DNA from: an uncultured Thiodictyon sp.
GTDB taxonomy: Bacteria; Pseudomonadota; Gammaproteobacteria; Chromatiales; Chromatiaceae
DNA length: 48,777 nt
Direction of reading: 5' to 3'
NCBI RefSeq assembly: GCF_903946935.1
Contig: NZ_CAJAXH010000119.1
Location: 1-48,777, forward strand
Positions 3,378 to 22,874 of the stretch are shown here, piece by piece. The notes under the pieces were generated by a model, which searched no databases, was not told the DNA's origin, and saw only the letters and a program-made list of their open reading frames with translations. Within the stretch, counting starts at the first letter, position 1, and the number at the start of each line of letters is the position of its first letter. A program made the position numbers and the translations under genes.

Positions 3378-4874
3378 TCAGTGCCTTACCTGCGTCCGCC
3401 AGGTGAGGGTGACGGCTCCCTCGGCCGGGACCTGGACCTGCCAGGAGGCGAGGTTGGACGCCTCTTTGGTGTGCGGCTGACTCTCCTGGGTCATCTTCCA
3501 ATCCCCTGGGATCTCCTCCAGCACCTTGACCGTGACCGGCTCCGGCCGCGCGTTCTTCAACTCCATGGCGAAGGCGGCCTCGTAGGCATAGTCATAGCGG
3601 CCGCTGCCGGAGAGTTTATTGAACTCGGTTTGCTTGCGCCGGGCGGTCACATCGAAGCTCTCGCCGAGCTTCAAGGTGACTGTCTCATTCTTGGGGGTGT
3701 GATCGATACGGTCCTCGCCGATGAATTGGGCATTGCCCCGGCTGTCCTTGGAATAGACGCGCACCACACCCTTGGGCAGGGGGATACCCAGGCTCCCGCC
3801 CTTATTGATGAAGTTGAGGGTGGAGGCCACCGCGAGCTTGTTCCAGCCATCGGATGACTGGGACTGGTAGGAATAGGGCTGGCCGCGTACCACCAGTTCA
3901 CGCGTAATCGGCACCCGCGGGGCGGACAGCAGGGCCACCTGTTTGGTCTGGTTGTTGCCGATGTCGGTGGGGCGCGGCAGGGTATAGAGGTGGTATTGGT
4001 CCAGCGACTCCTCTTGCGGCATGGGGGCGGCCGCGGGCATCGCCATGGTCCGCATCATCATGGGCGGCGGCGGGGCCGGACGGACCTGATTGACCTCGCC
4101 CGCCACCAACTGCACCTGCGCCTGCCGGTAGGCGACGCCGCTGGCGTTGGTGAGTGTGACCCAGCCGCTCAGATCCATGGTCTTGCCGTCGGCGGAGGCA
4201 TCGGCCACATAGTCCGCCTTCCAGCCCAGCCCGCCGGTGAGATAGGACAGCTCGAAGGTGCCGCCGCCCGCCGCCGGCGAATCCAGGTGCAAGACCAGGG
4301 TGGGCTGGTCGCGCAGGTCCGCCGGCAGGTCGGGGAAGGCGAGGTGCCCGGCCACGCCGGTCTCGATGCGGTCGGCATAGCGCAGGACCACGCCGTCGTT
4401 GGTGGCGAGCACCGTGGCGTCTTCGGCGGTGCGCGTCCCGGCGTCGTTGGTGCGGATGACCTGGACCTTACGGCCCACATATTTCTTGAGCAGGCTATCG
4501 GGGGTGAGCAGGTCGAAGTCGAAGTTCTGCTCCAAGAGGCTGATCGGGAGCTTCCCGGAGGTCTCCGACAGCAGCGCGGTCTCGGGGCGGATCTTGCCGG
4601 AGACATTGCGCCAGGCCAGCCGATTCTCGCCCTGGGCGAGGGTGAGTGCGCGCAGGTCCTTCACCAGGGCCAGGTCGTCGTTGTAGATGGTGACGGCCAG
4701 GGCGCGCTGGGCCGAGTCGTCGATGCGCTGTTCGGCAACGCTGGCGGCAGTATTGGGGGTGTCCATGGCGGCTCCCGGGTGGGCGATGAGCAGACCGAGC
4801 AGGGCGGCGAGCGGGCGCAGGCCCGCGGACCCTGCCGGGGTGTAGACGGGTCGGGACGGTTTGGCGTGCGGCAT
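3378..4874 (-). CDS. Secreted DUF4139-domain protein
   Basis: The protein has 498 residues from ATG 4874, chosen because AGGAG lies 7 bases upstream; ATG 4889 would add five residues. An N-terminal signal peptide (LRPLAALLGLLIAHPGAAM) predicts export. The body shows the DUF4139 pattern: an early YNDDLALVKDLRAL strand, GRKVQVIRT, LSYLTGGLGWKADYVA near the middle, and C-terminal LNFINKGGSLGIPLPKGVVRVY with KNARPEPVTVKVLEEIPGDW. A Pro/Met-rich low-complexity stretch (PPPPMMMRTMAMPAAAPMP) separates the halves. The molecular function of the family is unknown. It heads a run with nfeD and slipin, which hints at an envelope role, but that is only context. Confidence 0.88.
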   Translation of the reverse strand: MPHAKPSRPVYTPAGSAGLRPLAALLGLLIAHPGAAMDTPNTAASVAEQRIDDSAQRALAVTIYNDDLALVKDLRALTLAQGENRLAWRNVSGKIRPETALLSETSGKLPISLLEQNFDFDLLTPDSLLKKYVGRKVQVIRTNDAGTRTAEDATVLATNDGVVLRYADRIETGVAGHLAFPDLPADLRDQPTLVLHLDSPAAGGGTFELSYLTGGLGWKADYVADASADGKTMDLSGWVTLTNASGVAYRQAQVQLVAGEVNQVRPAPPPPMMMRTMAMPAAAPMPQEESLDQYHLYTLPRPTDIGNNQTKQVALLSAPRVPITRELVVRGQPYSYQSQSSDGWNKLAVASTLNFINKGGSLGIPLPKGVVRVYSKDSRGNAQFIGEDRIDHTPKNETVTLKLGESFDVTARRKQTEFNKLSGSGRYDYAYEAAFAMELKNARPEPVTVKVLEEIPGDWKMTQESQPHTKEASNLASWQVQVPAEGAVTLTWRTQVRH

Positions 4875-5015
4875 GGAGGCTCCTGGCATGGGTGTCAGTG
4901 TCTAGGGTTCCACAGTGGTGGCCGATCTGGGGAGAATCCACACCAGGCTCGAATGAACGACTGATATTTGGCGCTTGCAGTCGGCGGCCGCGGACTTGCA
5001 TACTGGGGGCCGCTC

Positions 5016-9215: not shown

Positions 9216-9262
9216 AACGCCGAGGCCCGAGATCGCCCAGCGACCTCGGGCCTCGGCGTTTT
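9216..9262 (+). terminator. Rho-independent terminator of the DUF485-actP operon
   Basis: A perfect 16-base stem (AACGCCGAGGCCCGAG 9216-9231 with its complement 9245-9260) encloses a 13-base loop and runs into TTTT (9259-9262). The T tract is short, but the stem is very stable and correctly placed downstream of actP. The stem is symmetric, though no minus-strand gene ends here, so it serves the plus strand. Confidence 0.8.
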
Positions 9263-9279
9263 CAGAGCTAAGAATCTTT

Positions 9280-9457
9280 GTCCGCAAATGAACGCAAATA
9301 AACGCAAATGGCCAAGCAGCAAGCCGCCTACAAGAACGCAGTCAATGCAATAGGACTGAACGAGTTGCGTGTCGGTGTCGACGCAATCTCAGGGAGCCGG
9401 CGGTACCACCGGCACACTGCATTCTTAATTTGCGTTCATTCGCGTTCATTTGCGGAC
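9280..9457. repeat. 178-bp inverted-repeat element with CGCAAAT-type 30-bp arms
   Basis: The left arm 9280-9309 begins GTCCGCAAATGAACGCAAAT. The right arm 9428-9457 ends in its complement, and the arms match at 28 of 30 positions by my count. Each arm is built of near-repeats of the unit AACGCAAAT. The 118-base centre has no recognisable ORF. It sits between the actP terminator and the cNMP/CBS gene, like a MITE or other non-autonomous dispersed repeat. A second element of the same style lies inside mod at 17812-17894. Confidence 0.75.
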
Positions 9458-9509
9458 ACTATTTCCGTTCTCGGTCATAGCGCCCTATTGTTACCCCAGG
9501 GGAAACCGC

Positions 9510-16028: not shown

Positions 16029-18137
16029 ATGCAACACATCGACGCGAACAGCCCTGAATCTCACTCCGCTGACTTGCCGGCGGAGAACATCGAGCGCCTC
16101 AAGGCCCTGTTCCCGGAACTGCTCACCGAAGGACCGAACGGCGTGGCGGTCAACGTCGACGTACTCAAGTCATTGGTGGGTGACCAGACCGTGACGGATG
16201 CTGAGGAGAAATACGGGCTCAACTGGCACGGCAAGCGCCGCGCCCGCCAGCTTGCACTCACCCCCAGCACCGGCACCCTGCGCCCCTGCCCCGAGGAAAG
16301 CCTGGACTGGGACACCACCCAGAACCTGATGATCGAGGGCGACAATCTGGAGGTGCTCAAGCTCCTGCAGAAAAGCTATGCGGGCAAGGTCAAGCTCATC
16401 TATATCGACCCACCGTACAATACCGGCAATGACTTTGTGTACCCGGACGACTTCCGGGACAACATTCGCAATTACCTGGAATTGACTGCGCAGGTCGCAG
16501 GCGGCGCCAAGATTAGCAGTAATACCGAAGCCAGCGGCCGATTTCATACCGATTGGCTCAATATGATGTATCCGCGAATTAAGCTGGCCTGGAACCTGCT
16601 GAAGGGCGATGGGTTCTTCTTGATCAGCCTCGACGATCATGAGTTCGGACACCTAAGAGCAGTTCTGAATGAACTTTGTGGCGAAGAGAATTTTATCGCC
16701 ACGCTTGTTTTTGATAGAAACAGGAAGAACGATGCCAAGCTTGTTTCCGTCGGCCATGAGTACATGGTGCTTTATGCCAAGAACAAGCAGTTTTTGACTG
16801 AACTCGACGTTCGCCTGCGTGCCCCAAAAGACGGCGTCGATGAAATGCGAGACCTCTTTGCCGAGCTTCGTCATAAACATGGAGATGAATGGGAGGCAAT
16901 CTCAACGCGGTTGAAGGAACACTACGCGGGATTCAGTGATGATGACCCCCGCCTTCCGCTTGCGCGCTTCTCAAAGGTTGACGAACGCGGACCTTACCGG
17001 GATGATGGAGATCCGAGCTGGCCGGGAGGGGGAGGGCCACGTTACGACGTATTTCACCCGGTGACCGGCTTGCCATGCGCGGTCCCGAGTCGGGGCTGGG
17101 TTTGGCCCACCTATGACCGCATGAAACAAGAGATCGACGCCGGGAATATCATATTTGGTCAAGACGAAAAGCGAATCCCATCAATTAGAAGAAATCTGTT
17201 CGAGAAGGACGAGCAAGTCCTGCGGAGCGTGATTTTTAGCTATGCCCAGAAAGCGACCCAAGAGTTTGTCGCGCTATTCGATGGAAAGCCTGTCTTCCAA
17301 AACGCAAAAAGCTACCGTGACCTCCATCGGTTGGCAACGTATCTCACGGAACCCGGTGATTTAATACTGGACTTCTTCGCGGGCTCAGGCACCACCGGCC
17401 ATGGCATTATGCTGGCGAATACAGAAGCTACGGCCGCCCGGCGTTTCATCCTCATCCAATTTCCGGAACCACTAGCATCAGAAAACAAGAATCAGCGGGC
17501 GGCCTGCGAATTTTGTGACGAGATAGAGAAGCCACGCAATATCTCAGAGATTACTAAGGAGCGTTTACGCCGAGCCGCCGCTAAGGTCAAGGCCGAATCT
17601 CCGTTGTTCGCGGGCGGCACCGGTTTCCGCGTGTTTAAACTCGACACATCCAACATCCGCGCCTGGAACCCAAATCCCACAGATCTGGAAGCCGACCTAT
17701 TGTCGCACCTGGACCACTTGGTCGAGGGTCGCACCGAATCCGATATTCTGTACGAGTTGTTGCTCAAACTGGGGCTTGACCTGTGCGTGCCGATCGAAAC
17801 CAAGACCATTGATCCGCAGATGACGCAGATTAACGCAGATAAAGACACGGAATTAATGCCTTATCATCTGCGAACATCTGCGTCATCTGCGGATAAGACG
17901 GCCTTGCGTATCTACTCCGTCGGCGGTGGCGTGCTGATGGCGTGCCTGGCCGAGAAGATCGTGCAAGACCAGGTGGAACCCCTGGCACAGGCCATCGTCG
18001 AGTGGCACCAGACCCTGGCCCCGGCCGGGGACACGACCTGCGTCTTCCGCGACAGCGCCTTCGCCGACGACGTGGCCAAGACCAACCTCAGCGCCATCCT
18101 TGAACAGCATGGCATTCAGAACGTGCGCAGCCTGTGA
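16029..18137 (+). CDS. mod: Type III restriction-modification DNA methyltransferase (Mod)
   Basis: This 702-residue adenine-N6 methyltransferase belongs to the beta group, with the catalytic motif IYIDPPYNTGNDFVY (about residue 130) before the AdoMet motif LDFFAGSGTTGHG (about residue 450). The region between them holds the target-recognition part (DGDPSWPGGGGPRYD; LPCAVPSRGWVWPTYDRM). The N-terminus (ENIERLKALFPELLTEGPNG) is typical of Mod. ATG 16029 is preferred over TTG 15960, which overlaps the previous gene. GGAG lies about 11 bases upstream. It partners with Res, encoded 1.7 kb downstream beyond darTG. A palindromic repeat (17812-17894) adds about 28 residues near residue 595-622. Confidence 0.95.
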   Translation: MQHIDANSPESHSADLPAENIERLKALFPELLTEGPNGVAVNVDVLKSLVGDQTVTDAEEKYGLNWHGKRRARQLALTPSTGTLRPCPEESLDWDTTQNLMIEGDNLEVLKLLQKSYAGKVKLIYIDPPYNTGNDFVYPDDFRDNIRNYLELTAQVAGGAKISSNTEASGRFHTDWLNMMYPRIKLAWNLLKGDGFFLISLDDHEFGHLRAVLNELCGEENFIATLVFDRNRKNDAKLVSVGHEYMVLYAKNKQFLTELDVRLRAPKDGVDEMRDLFAELRHKHGDEWEAISTRLKEHYAGFSDDDPRLPLARFSKVDERGPYRDDGDPSWPGGGGPRYDVFHPVTGLPCAVPSRGWVWPTYDRMKQEIDAGNIIFGQDEKRIPSIRRNLFEKDEQVLRSVIFSYAQKATQEFVALFDGKPVFQNAKSYRDLHRLATYLTEPGDLILDFFAGSGTTGHGIMLANTEATAARRFILIQFPEPLASENKNQRAACEFCDEIEKPRNISEITKERLRRAAAKVKAESPLFAGGTGFRVFKLDTSNIRAWNPNPTDLEADLLSHLDHLVEGRTESDILYELLLKLGLDLCVPIETKTIDPQMTQINADKDTELMPYHLRTSASSADKTALRIYSVGGGVLMACLAEKIVQDQVEPLAQAIVEWHQTLAPAGDTTCVFRDSAFADDVAKTNLSAILEQHGIQNVRSL
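17812..17894. repeat. 83-bp palindromic repeat inserted in frame within mod
   Basis: The left arm 17812-17840 (ATCCGCAGATGACGCAGATT...) and right arm 17866-17894 (ending ATCTGCGTCATCTGCGGAT) are inverted copies matching at 26 of 29 positions by my count. The unit resembles CGCAGAT, like the CGCAAAT arms of the element at 9280-9457. In the mod frame the arms read DPQMTQINADK and RTSASSADK with no stop. Sequence on both sides continues the methyltransferase C-terminal domain, so this looks like a repeat tolerated inside a coding sequence. Confidence 0.8.
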
Positions 18138-18139
18138 CC

Positions 18140-18781
18140 ATGGCACCCCCAATGCAGCCCAAGCTGTACCACATTGCCCATGTGGACCGGCTACCTTCTA
18201 TCGTGGCGGACGGCTGCCTGTGGTGCGATGCAGAGGTGGTCCGTCGCACGCCGGCCGGCACCACGATTGGTATGAGCAACATCAAGCAACGACGCCTGAC
18301 CACCCTCACCTTAAGCAGCCAGCCGGGCGTGCATGTGGGTGATTGCGTGCCGTTCTATTTCTGCCCGCGCTCGGTCATGCTGTATCTGATCTATCAGGCC
18401 AACCATCCCGAACTCGGATACCGCGGCGGCCAAGGCCCGATCATTCACCTGGAGGCCGACCTGCACCAGGTTGTGGCCTGGGCGAATCAGCAAGGGCGGC
18501 GCTGGGCCTTCACCCTCTCGAATGCTGGATCGTACTTCTTTGAAGACCGCTGCGATCTTGCGCGTTTAAGCGAAATCGACTGGAATGCAGTTCAGACGCG
18601 TAATTGGCAGTCATGCAAGGACGGCAAGCAGGCCGAGTTTCTGCTGGAGCACAGTTTTCCCTGGAATCTCGTCGAACGCATCGGCGTGCATTCCCGCGCG
18701 ACTTTTCAGCTGGCAACCAATGCCCTGCCCGTCAATGGCCATCGGCCAGCGGTCGATATTCGTACCGACTGGTACTACTGA
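18140..18781 (+). CDS. darT: DarT-type DNA thymidine ADP-ribosyltransferase toxin (DUF4433)
   Basis: This 213-residue protein shows DarT landmarks: LYHIAHVDRLPSIVADGCLW near the N-terminus, VHVGDCVPFYFCPRSVMLYL (about 75-95), and a C-terminal KQAEFLLEHSFPWNLVERI containing the expected catalytic glutamate region. DarT enzymes attach ADP-ribose to thymidine in single-stranded DNA, blocking replication, and act in phage defence. ATG 18140 was chosen; GTG 18134 overlaps the mod stop and is also possible, and no strong ribosome-binding site is visible, suggesting coupling to mod. The antitoxin gene darG follows after 17 bases. The toxin precedes the antitoxin, as is usual for DarTG. Confidence 0.9.
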   Translation: MAPPMQPKLYHIAHVDRLPSIVADGCLWCDAEVVRRTPAGTTIGMSNIKQRRLTTLTLSSQPGVHVGDCVPFYFCPRSVMLYLIYQANHPELGYRGGQGPIIHLEADLHQVVAWANQQGRRWAFTLSNAGSYFFEDRCDLARLSEIDWNAVQTRNWQSCKDGKQAEFLLEHSFPWNLVERIGVHSRATFQLATNALPVNGHRPAVDIRTDWYY

Positions 18782-18798
18782 AAGAGGAGGTGTCAGCC

Positions 18799-19860
18799 AT
18801 GATCGACTTCACAAGCGGCGACATCCTGAACGATGAATCCGAAGCGCTCATCAATACCGTGAACTGCGTGGGCGTGATGGGTCGCGGCATCGCGTTGCAG
18901 TTCAAGCGCGTCTATCCGGAGAACTTCGATGCTTACGCCGCGGCTTGCAAGCGGGGCGAGGTACAACCCGGACAGATGTTTTTCTTCGAGACCGGCCGGC
19001 TTACCGCACCGCGCTACATCATCAACTTCCCGACCAAACGTCATTGGCGCGGCAAGAGCCGGATCGAGGACATTGAGGCAGGGCTCAAAGCGTTAGTTAC
19101 GTTGATCCAGGAGAAGCAGATTCGCTCCATCGCGATTCCGCCCCTTGGCAGCGGGCTTGGCGGTCTTGATTGGGCCGATGTCAGGCCGCGTATCGAAGCG
19201 GCTTTGAATCGACTCCCTGACGTTCATGTCGCCATCTACGAGCCCAAAGGCGCGCCAGCTTCAGAGGTCATGGCCCGCAACCGCGAGGTACCAAAGATGA
19301 CTCCAGGACGGGCCGCGCTGGTGGAGTTGATGAATCGCTATCTGGCAGGCCTGCTTGATCCCTTTGTGACCCTGCTGGAAGTGCACAAGCTGATGTACTT
19401 TATGCAAGGCGCTGGCGAGCCGCTGCGGCTCACGTTCAAGCAGGCACCGTATGGCCCCTATGCCGAGAATCTACGCCATGTGCTGCACGCCATTGAGGGG
19501 CATCTGACGGTGGGTTATGCGGATGGCGGCGACGCACCGGACAAGCCGCTTAGCTTGGTACCGGGCGCCGTTGAAGACGCGACGCGGTTCTTGTCAGCTC
19601 ATGCCGACACCCGTGTGCGCTTCGACCGGGTTGCGTCACTGGTGGAGGGCTTCGAGTCCCCCTTTGGACTCGATCTACTGTCCACAGTGCATTGGGTCGT
19701 AACACAGATGCCAGTGTCAACAATCGACGACATTGTCGAGCGTACTTACGCCTGGAACGCACGCAAACGGCAGTTCACGCCGCGACAGATCGGAATCGCC
19801 GTTCAGGTTCTGTCGAACCAGGGTTGGATTTCTCAACCCATCAGGGGCGTGCAAGCGTGA
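18799..19860 (+). CDS. darG: DarG antitoxin: macrodomain DNA ADP-ribosyl glycohydrolase with DarT-binding C-terminus
   Basis: The 353-residue protein starts at ATG 18799, preceded by AAAGAGGAGG. The N-terminal macrodomain (about 1-155) contains ALINTVNCVGVMGRGIALQF, INFPTKRHWRGKSRIEDIE and AIPPLGSGLGGLDW, the loops that bind ADP-ribose. This domain removes ADP-ribose from thymidine. The C-terminal half (about 170-353; LVELMNRYLAGLLDPFVTL; KLMYFMQGAGEPLRL; APYGPYAENLRHVLHAIEGH) matches the domain that binds and inhibits DarT. Its stop overlaps the GTG start of res (GTGA), so the antitoxin is translationally linked to the restriction subunit. Confidence 0.92.
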   Translation: MIDFTSGDILNDESEALINTVNCVGVMGRGIALQFKRVYPENFDAYAAACKRGEVQPGQMFFFETGRLTAPRYIINFPTKRHWRGKSRIEDIEAGLKALVTLIQEKQIRSIAIPPLGSGLGGLDWADVRPRIEAALNRLPDVHVAIYEPKGAPASEVMARNREVPKMTPGRAALVELMNRYLAGLLDPFVTLLEVHKLMYFMQGAGEPLRLTFKQAPYGPYAENLRHVLHAIEGHLTVGYADGGDAPDKPLSLVPGAVEDATRFLSAHADTRVRFDRVASLVEGFESPFGLDLLSTVHWVVTQMPVSTIDDIVERTYAWNARKRQFTPRQIGIAVQVLSNQGWISQPIRGVQA

Positions 19861-22800
19861 AACTGCACTTTGAACCCAACCTGGATTTCCAGCTGCAGGC
19901 CATCGAAGCGGTCTGCGACCTATTCCGCGGCCAGGAGGTCTGCCGAACCGAATTCACCGTCACCATGAAGGGGGCGCCGCCGGCCGATGCGGATTCACTG
20001 TTGCCTGGCACGCTTTCTGAGCAGCTGACGCTCGGCATCGCGGAGTCGGACCTGGGCATCGGTAACCGTTTGACCCTGTTGGACGATGAGCTGTTGGAAA
20101 ACCTGCACGCGATCCAGCTTCGCGGCGGTCTTCGACCCTCTACGTCACTGGCTTCGGGCGACTTCACGGTGGAGATGGAGACGGGGACCGGCAAGACGTA
20201 CGTCTACCTGCGAACCATCTTTGAGCTGAACAAGCGCTATGGCTTCGCCAAGTTCGTGATTGTCGTCCCGTCGGTGGCGATCAAAGAGGGGGTCTACAAG
20301 ACCCTTGAGATTACACAGGAACACTTCAAGGGGCTGTATGCCGGCACGCCCTACGACTACTTCCTCTATGATTCGTCGAAGCTGGGGCCGGTGCGCAACT
20401 TCGCCACCAGCTCACAGATTCAGGTCATGATCGTGACCGTGGGGGCCATCAACAAGAAGGACGTCAACAACCTCTACAAGGACAGCGAGAAGACGGGGGG
20501 CGAGAGGCCCATCGACTTGATCCGGGCCACGCGGCCTATCCTGATCGTGGATGAACCGCAAAGCGTCGATGGCGGTCTGTCAGGGAAGGGCAAGGAGGCG
20601 CTCAACGAGATGAACCCGCTCTGCACCCTGCGCTACTCCGCCACCCACGCCGATAAGCACCACATGGTGTTCCGGCTCGACGCGGTGGACGCCTACGAGC
20701 GTAAGCTGGTCAAGCAGATCGAGGTGGCGTCGGCGACCGTAGAAGGGGCGCACAATCGCCCCTTCGTGCGGCTGGTGTCGGTCGGCAATCAGCGCGGTGT
20801 CATCAGTGCGCGGGTGGAGCTGGATGTGGCGGCGGGGTCCGGTGTCGCACGGCGCGAGGTCGTCGTTCAGGACGGTGAGGACCTGGAGCAGACGACACGG
20901 CGTGCGCTCTACCGGGATTGCCGTATCGGTGAGATTCGCGTCCAGGCGGGCAAGGAGTTCATGGAGCTACGGGTACCGGGTGGAGAACACTTTCTGCTCG
21001 TAGGCCAGGCCTGGGGAGACGTGGACCCACTGGCCGTGCAGCGCCAGATGATCCGCCGCACCATCAAGGAGCACCTCGACAAGGAGAAGCGGCTGCGCCC
21101 GGAGGGGATCAAGGTCCTGAGCCTATTCTTTATCGACGCGGTGGACCGCTATCGGCAGTTCGACGCGGACGGTAACCCAGGCAAAGGCGCCTATGCACGC
21201 ATCTTTGAGGAGGAGTACCAGCGACTTGCCCGGCACCCCGACTACAGCAGCCTGTTCGAGGAAGTGGACCTCAGTCACACAGCCGAGGAGGTGCATGGGG
21301 GCTATTTCTCGATCGACAAGAAGAAGGTGGGCGGCAAGTCGGTCGAGGTCCTTAAGAATACGCGCGGCGACACCCAGGCCGACAACGACACCTACACGCT
21401 GATCATGCGCGACAAGGAGCGGCTACTGAGCATGGAGACGCCGCTCAAATTCATCTTCTCGCATTCGGCGCTACGGGAGGGTTGGGACAATCCCAACGTG
21501 TTCCAGATCTGCACCTTGCGCGACATCCAGACGGAACGCGAGCGGCGACAGACCATCGGCCGGGGCCTGCGACTGTGTGTCAACCAGGCTGGCCAGCGCG
21601 TGCGTGGCTTCGACGTCAACACCCTGACCGTGGTGGCGACCGAGAGCTTTGAGGAGTTCGCCGAGAACCTCCAGAAAGAGATCGAGCAGGACACCGGAAT
21701 CCGCTTTGGTATCGTGGAGCGGCATCAGTTCGCGGCGATTTCGGTCACCGGCGAGGATGGCCGGCAGGCGCCGCTGGGCTTCGCGCTGTCTGAGACCCTA
21801 TGGGAGTACCTGAAGGCACAGGGCTTCATTGATGCCAAGTGTCGGGTCCAGGACGCGCTAAGGAAAGCGCTCAAGGATGGCACCCTTTCGGTGCCCGAGC
21901 CCTTCACCCCGCTGCTCGATCAGATCACGACGGTGTTGCGAAAGCTGGCCGGGCGGCTGGAGATCAGGAACGCCGACGAGCGCCGGCCAGTCGGTGTGCG
22001 CAAAGGGGTATTCCTGAGTCCCGAATTCAAGGCGCTGTGGGACCGCATCAAGCACAAGACGACGTACCGCGTGCAGTTCGACAACGAGAAGCTGATCAAC
22101 CAGTGTATCGCCGCGGTGCGCGATGGGCCGCCCGTGTTTAAGGCACGCATCCACTGGCGAAAGGCCGATATCGCGATCGGCAAGGCGGGGGTGGCAGCGA
22201 CCGAGCGCGAGGGCGCCGCAACGGTGTCACCGAACGAGGCCGACATCGAGGTCCCCGACGTGCTTACCGACCTGCAGGACCGCACCCAGCTCACCCGCCG
22301 CACCATCCTGCGCATCCTCACCGGCTGCGGACGGCTTGACGACTTCAGGGGCAATCCGCAGCAGTTCATCGAGCTGACCGCGCAGACCATCAACCGATGC
22401 AAGCGCCTGGCGGTGGTCGACGGAATAAAGTACCAGCGACTGGGTACGGAGCACTACTTTGCGCAGGAGTTGTTTGAGCAGGAGGAACTGAGCGGATATC
22501 TCAAGAACATGCTCAAGGACACCAAGAAGTCAGTGTACGAGCACGTCGTTTTCGACTCGGACACCGAGGCGACCTTTGCCGACCGACTGGAGAAGAACGC
22601 CGACGTGAAGCTGTATGCCAAGCTGCCCGGTTGGTTCAAGGTTCCGACCCCGCTGGGGAGTTACAACCCGGACTGGGCGGTGCTGGTCATGGTGGAGGGC
22701 GGTGAGCGGTTGTATCTGGTCGTCGAGACCAAGGGCAGTCTGTTTGCGGATGACCTGCGCCGCACCGAGGGCGCCAAGATCGCCTGCGGTAAGGCACACT

Positions 22801-22874
22801 TCAAGGCGCTGGCGGTCGGCGCGGCGCCGGCGCGCTATCTGGTGGCGCGCTCACTGGATAACCTCTTGGGGTGA
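19857..22874 (+). CDS. res: Type III restriction endonuclease subunit (Res)
   Basis: The 1005-residue protein starts at GTG 19857, overlapping the darG stop; an upstream in-frame extension lies entirely inside darG. A superfamily 2 helicase/translocase occupies the N-terminal two thirds: Walker A VEMETGTGKTYVYLRTIF (about 105-120), DEPQ-type motif II ILIVDEPQSVDGG, and motif VI area RQTIGRGLRLCVNQ. The C-terminal PD-(D/E)xK nuclease is YNPDWAVLVMVEGG then YLVVETKGS. Together with Mod it forms the complex that cuts DNA after ATP-driven communication between two inversely oriented sites. Length is within the Res range. It is the last gene of the island transcript. Confidence 0.95.
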   Translation: MKLHFEPNLDFQLQAIEAVCDLFRGQEVCRTEFTVTMKGAPPADADSLLPGTLSEQLTLGIAESDLGIGNRLTLLDDELLENLHAIQLRGGLRPSTSLASGDFTVEMETGTGKTYVYLRTIFELNKRYGFAKFVIVVPSVAIKEGVYKTLEITQEHFKGLYAGTPYDYFLYDSSKLGPVRNFATSSQIQVMIVTVGAINKKDVNNLYKDSEKTGGERPIDLIRATRPILIVDEPQSVDGGLSGKGKEALNEMNPLCTLRYSATHADKHHMVFRLDAVDAYERKLVKQIEVASATVEGAHNRPFVRLVSVGNQRGVISARVELDVAAGSGVARREVVVQDGEDLEQTTRRALYRDCRIGEIRVQAGKEFMELRVPGGEHFLLVGQAWGDVDPLAVQRQMIRRTIKEHLDKEKRLRPEGIKVLSLFFIDAVDRYRQFDADGNPGKGAYARIFEEEYQRLARHPDYSSLFEEVDLSHTAEEVHGGYFSIDKKKVGGKSVEVLKNTRGDTQADNDTYTLIMRDKERLLSMETPLKFIFSHSALREGWDNPNVFQICTLRDIQTERERRQTIGRGLRLCVNQAGQRVRGFDVNTLTVVATESFEEFAENLQKEIEQDTGIRFGIVERHQFAAISVTGEDGRQAPLGFALSETLWEYLKAQGFIDAKCRVQDALRKALKDGTLSVPEPFTPLLDQITTVLRKLAGRLEIRNADERRPVGVRKGVFLSPEFKALWDRIKHKTTYRVQFDNEKLINQCIAAVRDGPPVFKARIHWRKADIAIGKAGVAATEREGAATVSPNEADIEVPDVLTDLQDRTQLTRRTILRILTGCGRLDDFRGNPQQFIELTAQTINRCKRLAVVDGIKYQRLGTEHYFAQELFEQEELSGYLKNMLKDTKKSVYEHVVFDSDTEATFADRLEKNADVKLYAKLPGWFKVPTPLGSYNPDWAVLVMVEGGERLYLVVETKGSLFADDLRRTEGAKIACGKAHFKALAVGAAPARYLVARSLDNLLG

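Follow-up and report, generated by a model that had tools for sequence, protein, structure and literature searches.

The question raised by this locus is how a palindromic DNA repeat came to be read as protein inside a restriction-modification gene, and to what kind of element that repeat belongs. The locus lies in an uncultured Thiodictyon sp. of the Chromatiaceae, on a stretch of 48,777 nucleotides (contig NZ_CAJAXH010000119.1, assembly GCF_903946935.1) which at its full length is called the window below. That palindromes can be translated in frame is established, as far as the portions of the literature cited here go. In Rickettsia, the so-called RPEs are dispersed palindromes which lie in frame in many genes and are translated as an extra segment, and the same was deemed conceivable in other prokaryotes in the sections concerned of a 2024 review (PMC10969869). 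Short REP palindromes are found in several phyla, some of them intragenic and translated; according to the relevant part of PMC3733652, their stems are of 5-13 bp (GTAG type) or 8-9 bp (CGTC type) with an unpaired tetranucleotide tag at the end, and the RPEs of R. conorii have CGTC at one end. Our reading of the present case, which we consider probable, is that a gene-less palindrome built of CGCAGAT heptamers, of a kind linked to GxxExxY genes, was inserted in frame into a beta-hairpin turn of the methyltransferase subunit Mod and is tolerated there as a loop of 29 residues.

The features of the locus are as follows.

16029-18137, plus strand: mod, methyltransferase subunit of a type III restriction-modification system, 702 aa, with the insertion inside it (open frame, PF01555, 4zcf)
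17811-17897, plus strand: net gain of 29 codons relative to homologues, at Mod residues 595-623 (homologue alignment; DNA ends approximate at the base level)
17812-17840, plus strand: 5' arm, ATC and three CGCAGAT, read DPQMTQINAD in Mod (inverted-repeat analysis, sequence)
17841-17865, plus strand: palindrome loop, 25 nt (inverted-repeat analysis)
17866-17894, plus strand: 3' arm, the inverted copy with three ATCTGCG units and GAT, read HLRTSASSAD in Mod (inverted-repeat analysis, sequence)
18140-18781, plus strand: darT, DNA ADP-ribosyltransferase, downstream of mod (domain match)
18799-19860, plus strand: darG-like macrodomain protein, downstream of mod (domain match)
19692-22874, plus strand: res, type III restriction subunit with ResIII and RE_endonuc (longest open frame)

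DPPY and FxGxG are motifs of type III Mod proteins of the N6_N4_Mtase type. The product of mod matches PF01555 (N6_N4_Mtase) and contains DPPYNT at residues 127-132 as well as FAGSGTT; the EcoP15I Mod (4zcf) matches it at E 1e-73, and its model aligns with 6k0w at Z 38.8 (rmsd 3.6 over 381 residues) and with 4zcf at Z 35.7 (rmsd 10.4 over 538 residues). The Pfam match, the motifs, the fold and a Res gene downstream at 19692 identify the protein as a type III Mod, which has the fold of EcoP15I-type Mod (4zcf, 6k0w) but differs from it by a 29-residue insertion in a turn of the C-terminal domain. The gene order is mod-darT-darG-res, with the palindrome inside the first gene. Between mod and res of this type III system (16029-22874) sits a DarT/macrodomain pair resembling a toxin-antitoxin system, neither member of which was found by tblastn at 24 Mod homologue loci, the flanks covered being roughly 0-5 kb long.

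The preliminary description had reported inverted arms of 29 bases at 17812-17894, and they were found just so: two arms of 29 nt (17812-17840 and 17866-17894) enclose a loop of 25 nt, with 26 of the 29 arm positions pairing. Each arm consists of three CGCAGAT heptamers at spacings of 9 and 10 nt, closed by ATC/GAT, and the outer ends of the palindrome read ATCC...GGAT. As RNA, the segment 17800-17905 folds at -49.5 kcal/mol versus -19.8 +/- 3.1 for shuffled sequences (z -9.5), none of 200 shuffles being as stable. The arms and the fold together therefore place the palindrome far beyond chance. The Mod frame (16029-18137) stays open across it and no stop is met.

Is the palindrome an addition to mod? 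Homologues were taken from 93 genomes of relatives, 274 genomes of the class, viral contigs (16 loci) and one plasmid; 27 loci were used, of which three (L297, L308, L312) were left out for open frames shorter than 450 aa, while weaker or partial matches among the relatives (L045, L048-L067) lie outside the alignment. Of the 24 homologues aligned, one (L307) stops short of the insertion site, which leaves 23 informative rows. The insertion is absent from all 23, with three residues at the site versus 32 in this Mod, the middle residue of the three-residue turn being G in 18 of the 23. The nearest homologue found (G017), 74% identical over its full length, is likewise without the insertion; with no closer one detected, the DNA ends given for the insertion are approximate at the base level. 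An alignment of this kind had been proposed beforehand, together with a contrary outcome, namely homologues carrying the segment without palindromic DNA; no such homologue is among the 23 rows. The earlier figure of about 28 inserted codons without a stop holds as regards the open frame, and the net size has to be corrected to 29 residues (595-623). We regard the in-frame insertion of an element into mod as near certain.

In an AF2 model of Mod built from a 15-row alignment (mean pLDDT 74.9), residues 599-622 have pLDDT below 50 and lie between strands at 589-594 and 626-631, in agreement with the surface loop that had been suggested earlier. According to the model, the insert is most likely a lengthened beta-turn in the C-terminal domain, forming a floppy surface loop. 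It is likely that Mod tolerates the insert as such a loop, and activity is predicted; the protein would still work since the turn would tolerate a change of length. The insert may owe its survival to a length that kept the frame, to arms free of stops in that frame, and to a landing site in a tolerant turn.

Regarding the identity of the repeat, the Mod palindrome had been said to resemble an intergenic element at 9280-9457, here delimited as follows.

9279-9458, no strand: related intergenic CGCAAAT element, 31-nt arms, 118-nt loop (inverted-repeat analysis; absent at the same place in a congener, G003)

The resemblance stands for the design, as both elements have three spaced heptamers per arm and outer ends of TCC/GGA or ATCC/GGAT, and fails for the heptamer, CGCAGAT in one and CGCAAAT in the other; this difference rules out the Mod element as a copy of the intergenic one. 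Genome-wide, the pattern CGCAGATN{1,4}CGCAGAT occurs five times (3 + 2 CGCAGAT pairs), four of them inside the Mod element. The arm pattern CGCARATNAACGCARAT, which covers both subfamilies with at most one mismatch, has 158 + 161 matches versus 18 + 17 for a reversed-pattern control, and among the matches listed all read CGCAAAT except one in the Mod element. The Mod element is thus of the CGCAGAT type and effectively single-copy in this genome; CGCAAAT is the home family, which includes the element at 9279-9458, and the Mod element stands outside it, because the listed matches of CGCARATNAACGCARAT read CGCAAAT and CGCAGAT is nearly absent elsewhere. The proposal that a dispersed repeat had become protein accordingly keeps its in-frame insertion and, as described below, dispersal in other genomes, and loses dispersal in this one, where the suggested genome-wide count of the CGCAGAT-type element gave these five matches.

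The home family itself has arms in common and not loops in the copies sampled: 15 CGCAAAT elements, that of the window included, have loops of 67-157 nt without a single similar pair (E 1e-3), and among the matches listed elsewhere in this genome for a 1-kb query around 9279-9458, the arms alone were covered. The window's copy has a sodium:solute symporter gene on one side and a DUF294 gene on the other. In the congener (contig 213) the element is missing and the junction, TTGTCCGGATA, resembles the two outer palindrome ends joined back to back, so that either an insertion in this genome or a collapse in the congener took place. Another inverted repeat (9216-9260; 21 nt, 95% complementary, 3-nt loop) follows the symporter gene, is also found in the congener, and is possibly a transcription terminator.

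In other genomes the CGCAGAT hairpin is widespread. With a short hairpin defined as two CGCAGAT heptamers per arm and 30-60 nt between, it was found in 25 stretches of viral contigs and in at least 119 stretches of GTDB genomes. By record title, the hosts among the matches listed are Acidobacteria, Planctomycetes, Verrucomicrobia, Chloroflexi, Bacteroidota, NC10, Pseudomonadota, Patescibacteria and a Bacillota bin, that is, at least nine phyla or candidate phyla, many of the records being metagenome bins in which single taxon assignments may err. In eight hairpin genomes the CGCAGAT pairs range from 9 + 5 to 239 + 243, with a control of zero in all eight; the highest count is that of Thiosymbion, also of the Chromatiaceae (239 + 243 versus 0 + 0). 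Covariation extends to bases that the heptamer search left free: of 146 distinct hairpins, 114 are symmetrical in their count of outer units, and complementarity was seen at the inner spacer in 61 of these 114 (shuffle mean 19.3, maximum 33) and at the three outer nucleotides in 78 of 112 (shuffle mean 31.1, maximum 44). With its inverted CGCAGAT arms, spacing of 9-10 nt and short loop, the Mod element belongs to what we name the CGCAGAT hairpin family. Since CGCAGAT is nearly absent here and abundant in a relative, Thiosymbion, an origin of the Mod copy in some other genome is probable; it would have reached mod from a CGCAGAT-rich relative, for example a Thiosymbion-like member of the Chromatiaceae, either together with the mod gene or alone.

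How often such hairpins enter genes was surveyed in 147 distinct hairpins, 74 of which are crossed by an open frame no shorter than 150. In 30 the open frame extends 45 residues or more beyond the hairpin in each direction, and 20 of these 30 frames were scanned against Pfam; five had any match, and domains on both sides were seen in L109 (portal and Mu F) and L175 (ResB and cytochrome c assembly) alone. L109 was rejected as a clean second case, as its net difference from a 98-99% identical contig without the hairpin is 164 nt, which is not a multiple of 3 and exceeds the hairpin. Of the viral contigs L410 and L411, which are 98-99% identical, one has a CGCAGAT hairpin plus about 85 nt in the portal-Mu F frame, and in the other 164 nt net are missing there. 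Open frames are no commoner in hairpins (2.52 of 6) than in the flanking DNA (3.45 of 6), shuffled hairpins having 1.42. Mod is the one clear in-gene case seen in this analysis.

What then is the hairpin related to? Arms of the same spaced-heptamer design surround GxxExxY genes (TIGR04256), one copy of which, on a Planctomycetota contig (L137), matches PF13366 (PDDEXK_3). Arms were counted where the 300-nt flanks of the gene formed an inverted repeat scoring at least 14, and control windows lay 800 nt further out. Among the relatives, 30 of 93 genomes have a GxxExxY match over the cut-off; of the 30 loci 24 are uncut, and arms were found at 20 of these 24 versus 0 of 24 in the control. Across phyla, in the hairpin genomes described below, 25 of 30 loci are uncut and 19 of the 25 have arms (control 0 of 25), which leaves 4 of 24 and 6 of 25 loci without arms at this threshold. 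A further 18 loci, two of which repeat earlier genes, gave arms at 17 in a count without control windows, and both viral loci, found with an alignment-based scan, have arms, a single-protein scan of viral contigs having found none. The arm heptamers vary (CGCAAAT, CGCAGAT, CACGGAG, CACAGAG, CGCAGAG, CACGAAG), and the scoring pair at L265 is not heptamer-like. Spaced-heptamer arms are the frame common to the gene-less hairpins and the GxxExxY genes.

The two also occur in the same genomes. Fifty assemblies were drawn from 56 picked among the 80 matches listed, all chosen for the short hairpin, and 44 of these 50 have GxxExxY over the cut-off versus 30 of the 93 relatives (Fisher p 7e-11), the two sets being unmatched for phylogeny and repeat load; six of the 50 have no match. 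Most of the best-scoring GxxExxY genes in the hairpin genomes are armed with heptamers other than CGCAGAT. The present genome has three such genes, with arms of CGCAAAT (C99), CGCGAAG (C241) and CGCCAAG (C276), and so none of the three supplies an arm-matched agent for the Mod element. The Mod element has the inverted spaced-heptamer arms of what we name GxxExxY-linked elements; since its 25-nt loop holds no gene and the genome's own GxxExxY genes have other arms, it is labelled a gene-less relative acquired from elsewhere rather than a proven member of the class. Kinship of the Mod insert with the heptamer-armed elements is very likely, and the element would be a gene-less relative of those enclosing GxxExxY (PDDEXK_3) genes.

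Some observations on these genes are added here. The stop-to-stop frames of GxxExxY genes at L252/L347, L251, L256 and L137 start inside a heptamer arm, with the beginnings TQMNAN, SPQMDT, TQMDAN and TQMYADKD, and the TQM.A pattern is like that of the Mod insert. On the L137 contig, CGCAGAT hairpins at 4346-4533 and 4574-4954 lie side by side and adjoin the GxxExxY gene. A fold predicted for GxxExxY from two sequences has a mean pLDDT of 43.9, and a profile of seven GxxExxY proteins against solved structures gave no convincing relative (best E 0.036). The C99 protein of this genome matched 0 phage records and 8 of 72,556 plasmid records. Genes of the four-helix-bundle family TIGR02436 (L315-L344, in relatives) also lie in inverted arms, largely of 7-nt tandem repeats; these score 14 or more at 14 of 24 uncut loci versus 0 of 24 in the control.

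As for how the elements move, the marks of standard transposition were sought. In 146 hairpins compared with shuffled flanks, target-site duplications of k = 2 to 8 showed no clear excess (observed versus expected: 13 versus 9.8 at k = 2, 1 versus 2.6 at k = 3, 0 versus 0.9 at k = 4, 2 versus 0.5 at k = 5, the largest, and 0 at k = 6 to 8). At Mod itself, AAGAC (17802-17806 and 17895-17899) was rejected as a 5-nt duplication, its 93-nt spacing disagreeing with a net insertion of 87 nt. Of the two hallmarks of a MITE, target-site duplication is thus not seen in the 146 hairpins, nor is a common internal sequence in the 15 elements of the CGCAAAT sister subfamily, CGCAGAT being single-copy here. 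Standard transposition is therefore unsupported.

These results bear on the alternative of a plain non-autonomous REP or MITE, unconnected with GxxExxY and mobilised by a transposase of the IS200/IS605 (RAYT) or DDE type. GTAG and CGTC REPs are known inside genes, according to the part of PMC3733652 concerned, and this genome has six Y1_Tnp (PF01797) matches; but none of the six loci shows tandem CGCARAT arms (at most one heptamer on either strand), and this check of the Y1_Tnp genes rejects a Y1/RAYT transposase as a visible partner in this genome. At the four uncut loci the flanking inverted repeats are negligible in two (scores 9 and 8) and of another kind in two (18 and 27). Moreover, arms of 29 nt with a loop of 25 nt and no GTAG/CGTC tag are unlike REPs, and the lack of a clear target duplication, and of shared loops in the sister subfamily, speaks against a MITE; we hold this alternative to be unlikely. 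The window has no Rfam match at the gathering threshold, which rejects a known Rfam family, and a search with the DNA of the element gave nothing in phages at E 0.01 or in plasmids at E 0.001.

Still less probable is that the hairpin is kept for a function in RNA, for example RNase III cleavage or pausing that would set how much Mod is made relative to DarTG and Res. The first gene of mod-darT-darG-res does contain a highly stable RNA hairpin, and pairing is maintained by covariation in the hairpin family; however, that covariation concerns the family in general and not the Mod site, the case is single with the other Mod homologues lacking the hairpin, and cleavage there would cut the mod message itself. 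That the palindrome arose in place, through quasi-palindrome correction or template switching, is hardly credible, for although templated mutation can sharpen palindromes and the lack of a clear target duplication would suit it, the heptamers and their spacing match many hairpins in unrelated genomes and the 29 extra residues are absent from the homologues.

Returning to the insertion of a gene-less, GxxExxY-linked palindrome, it is possible, though on balance doubtful, that the GxxExxY protein is the agent which spreads the elements: nuclease-like by its Pfam name, it would act on the arms, and gene-less copies would spread in trans. A wider proposal is offered tentatively, as one that may well prove wrong. 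Heptamer palindromes and GxxExxY would together form an undescribed, cross-phylum kind of selfish DNA, in which a PD-(D/E)XK-like protein recognises the tandem heptamers of the inverted arms, perhaps as an extruded cruciform, and spreads arms with unrelated loops and no target duplication; gene-less copies would occasionally become protein, as in Mod, and TIGR02436 (S23p) genes would be a second such class.

Comparison with known systems, as described in the portions of the sources cited, places the Mod element beside several of them. Like a Rickettsia RPE, it lies in frame inside an open reading frame and is read as an extra segment; unlike the RPEs, it has another arm sequence, spaced heptamers and no CGTC end, and its family is found in Chromatiaceae and other phyla with one clear in-gene case versus many genes. 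With GTAG/CGTC REPs it has in common a short palindromic repeat, occurrence in several phyla and translation within a gene, and differs in its 29-nt three-heptamer arms, 25-nt loop, absence of a tag and a link with GxxExxY rather than RAYT. In the 23S rRNA intervening sequences with S23p (TIGR02436), a small ORF lies in long inverted repeats that form one hairpin (PMC4990558, in the part concerned); the inverted repeats of GxxExxY elements likewise enclose a small ORF, but the protein family is another and the Mod case involves no rRNA site. The scoring TIGR02436 loci examined here have the arms of 7-nt tandem repeats noted above. For Thiomargarita, the relevant part of PMC4853749 describes heptamer repeats (TAACTGA) along with a MITE family whose presumed source is a PD-(D/E)XK_2 gene, a case related to but different from the heptamer-armed elements here. 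Both arm strings are absent from open-access PMC papers (subscription papers lying outside this scope), no account tying GxxExxY to palindromes was found in open-access PMC text, and what PMC8934634 says of GxxExxY in the part concerned has no bearing on palindromes. Neither the heptamer family nor its link with GxxExxY was found in that text.

The Mod gene thus provides a clean case of an in-frame palindrome outside Rickettsia, in the purple sulfur group of the Chromatiaceae and from another element family. In addition, common palindromes for which no description was found are tied to GxxExxY, a widespread PD-(D/E)XK-like protein, and through this tie the function of GxxExxY becomes directly testable.
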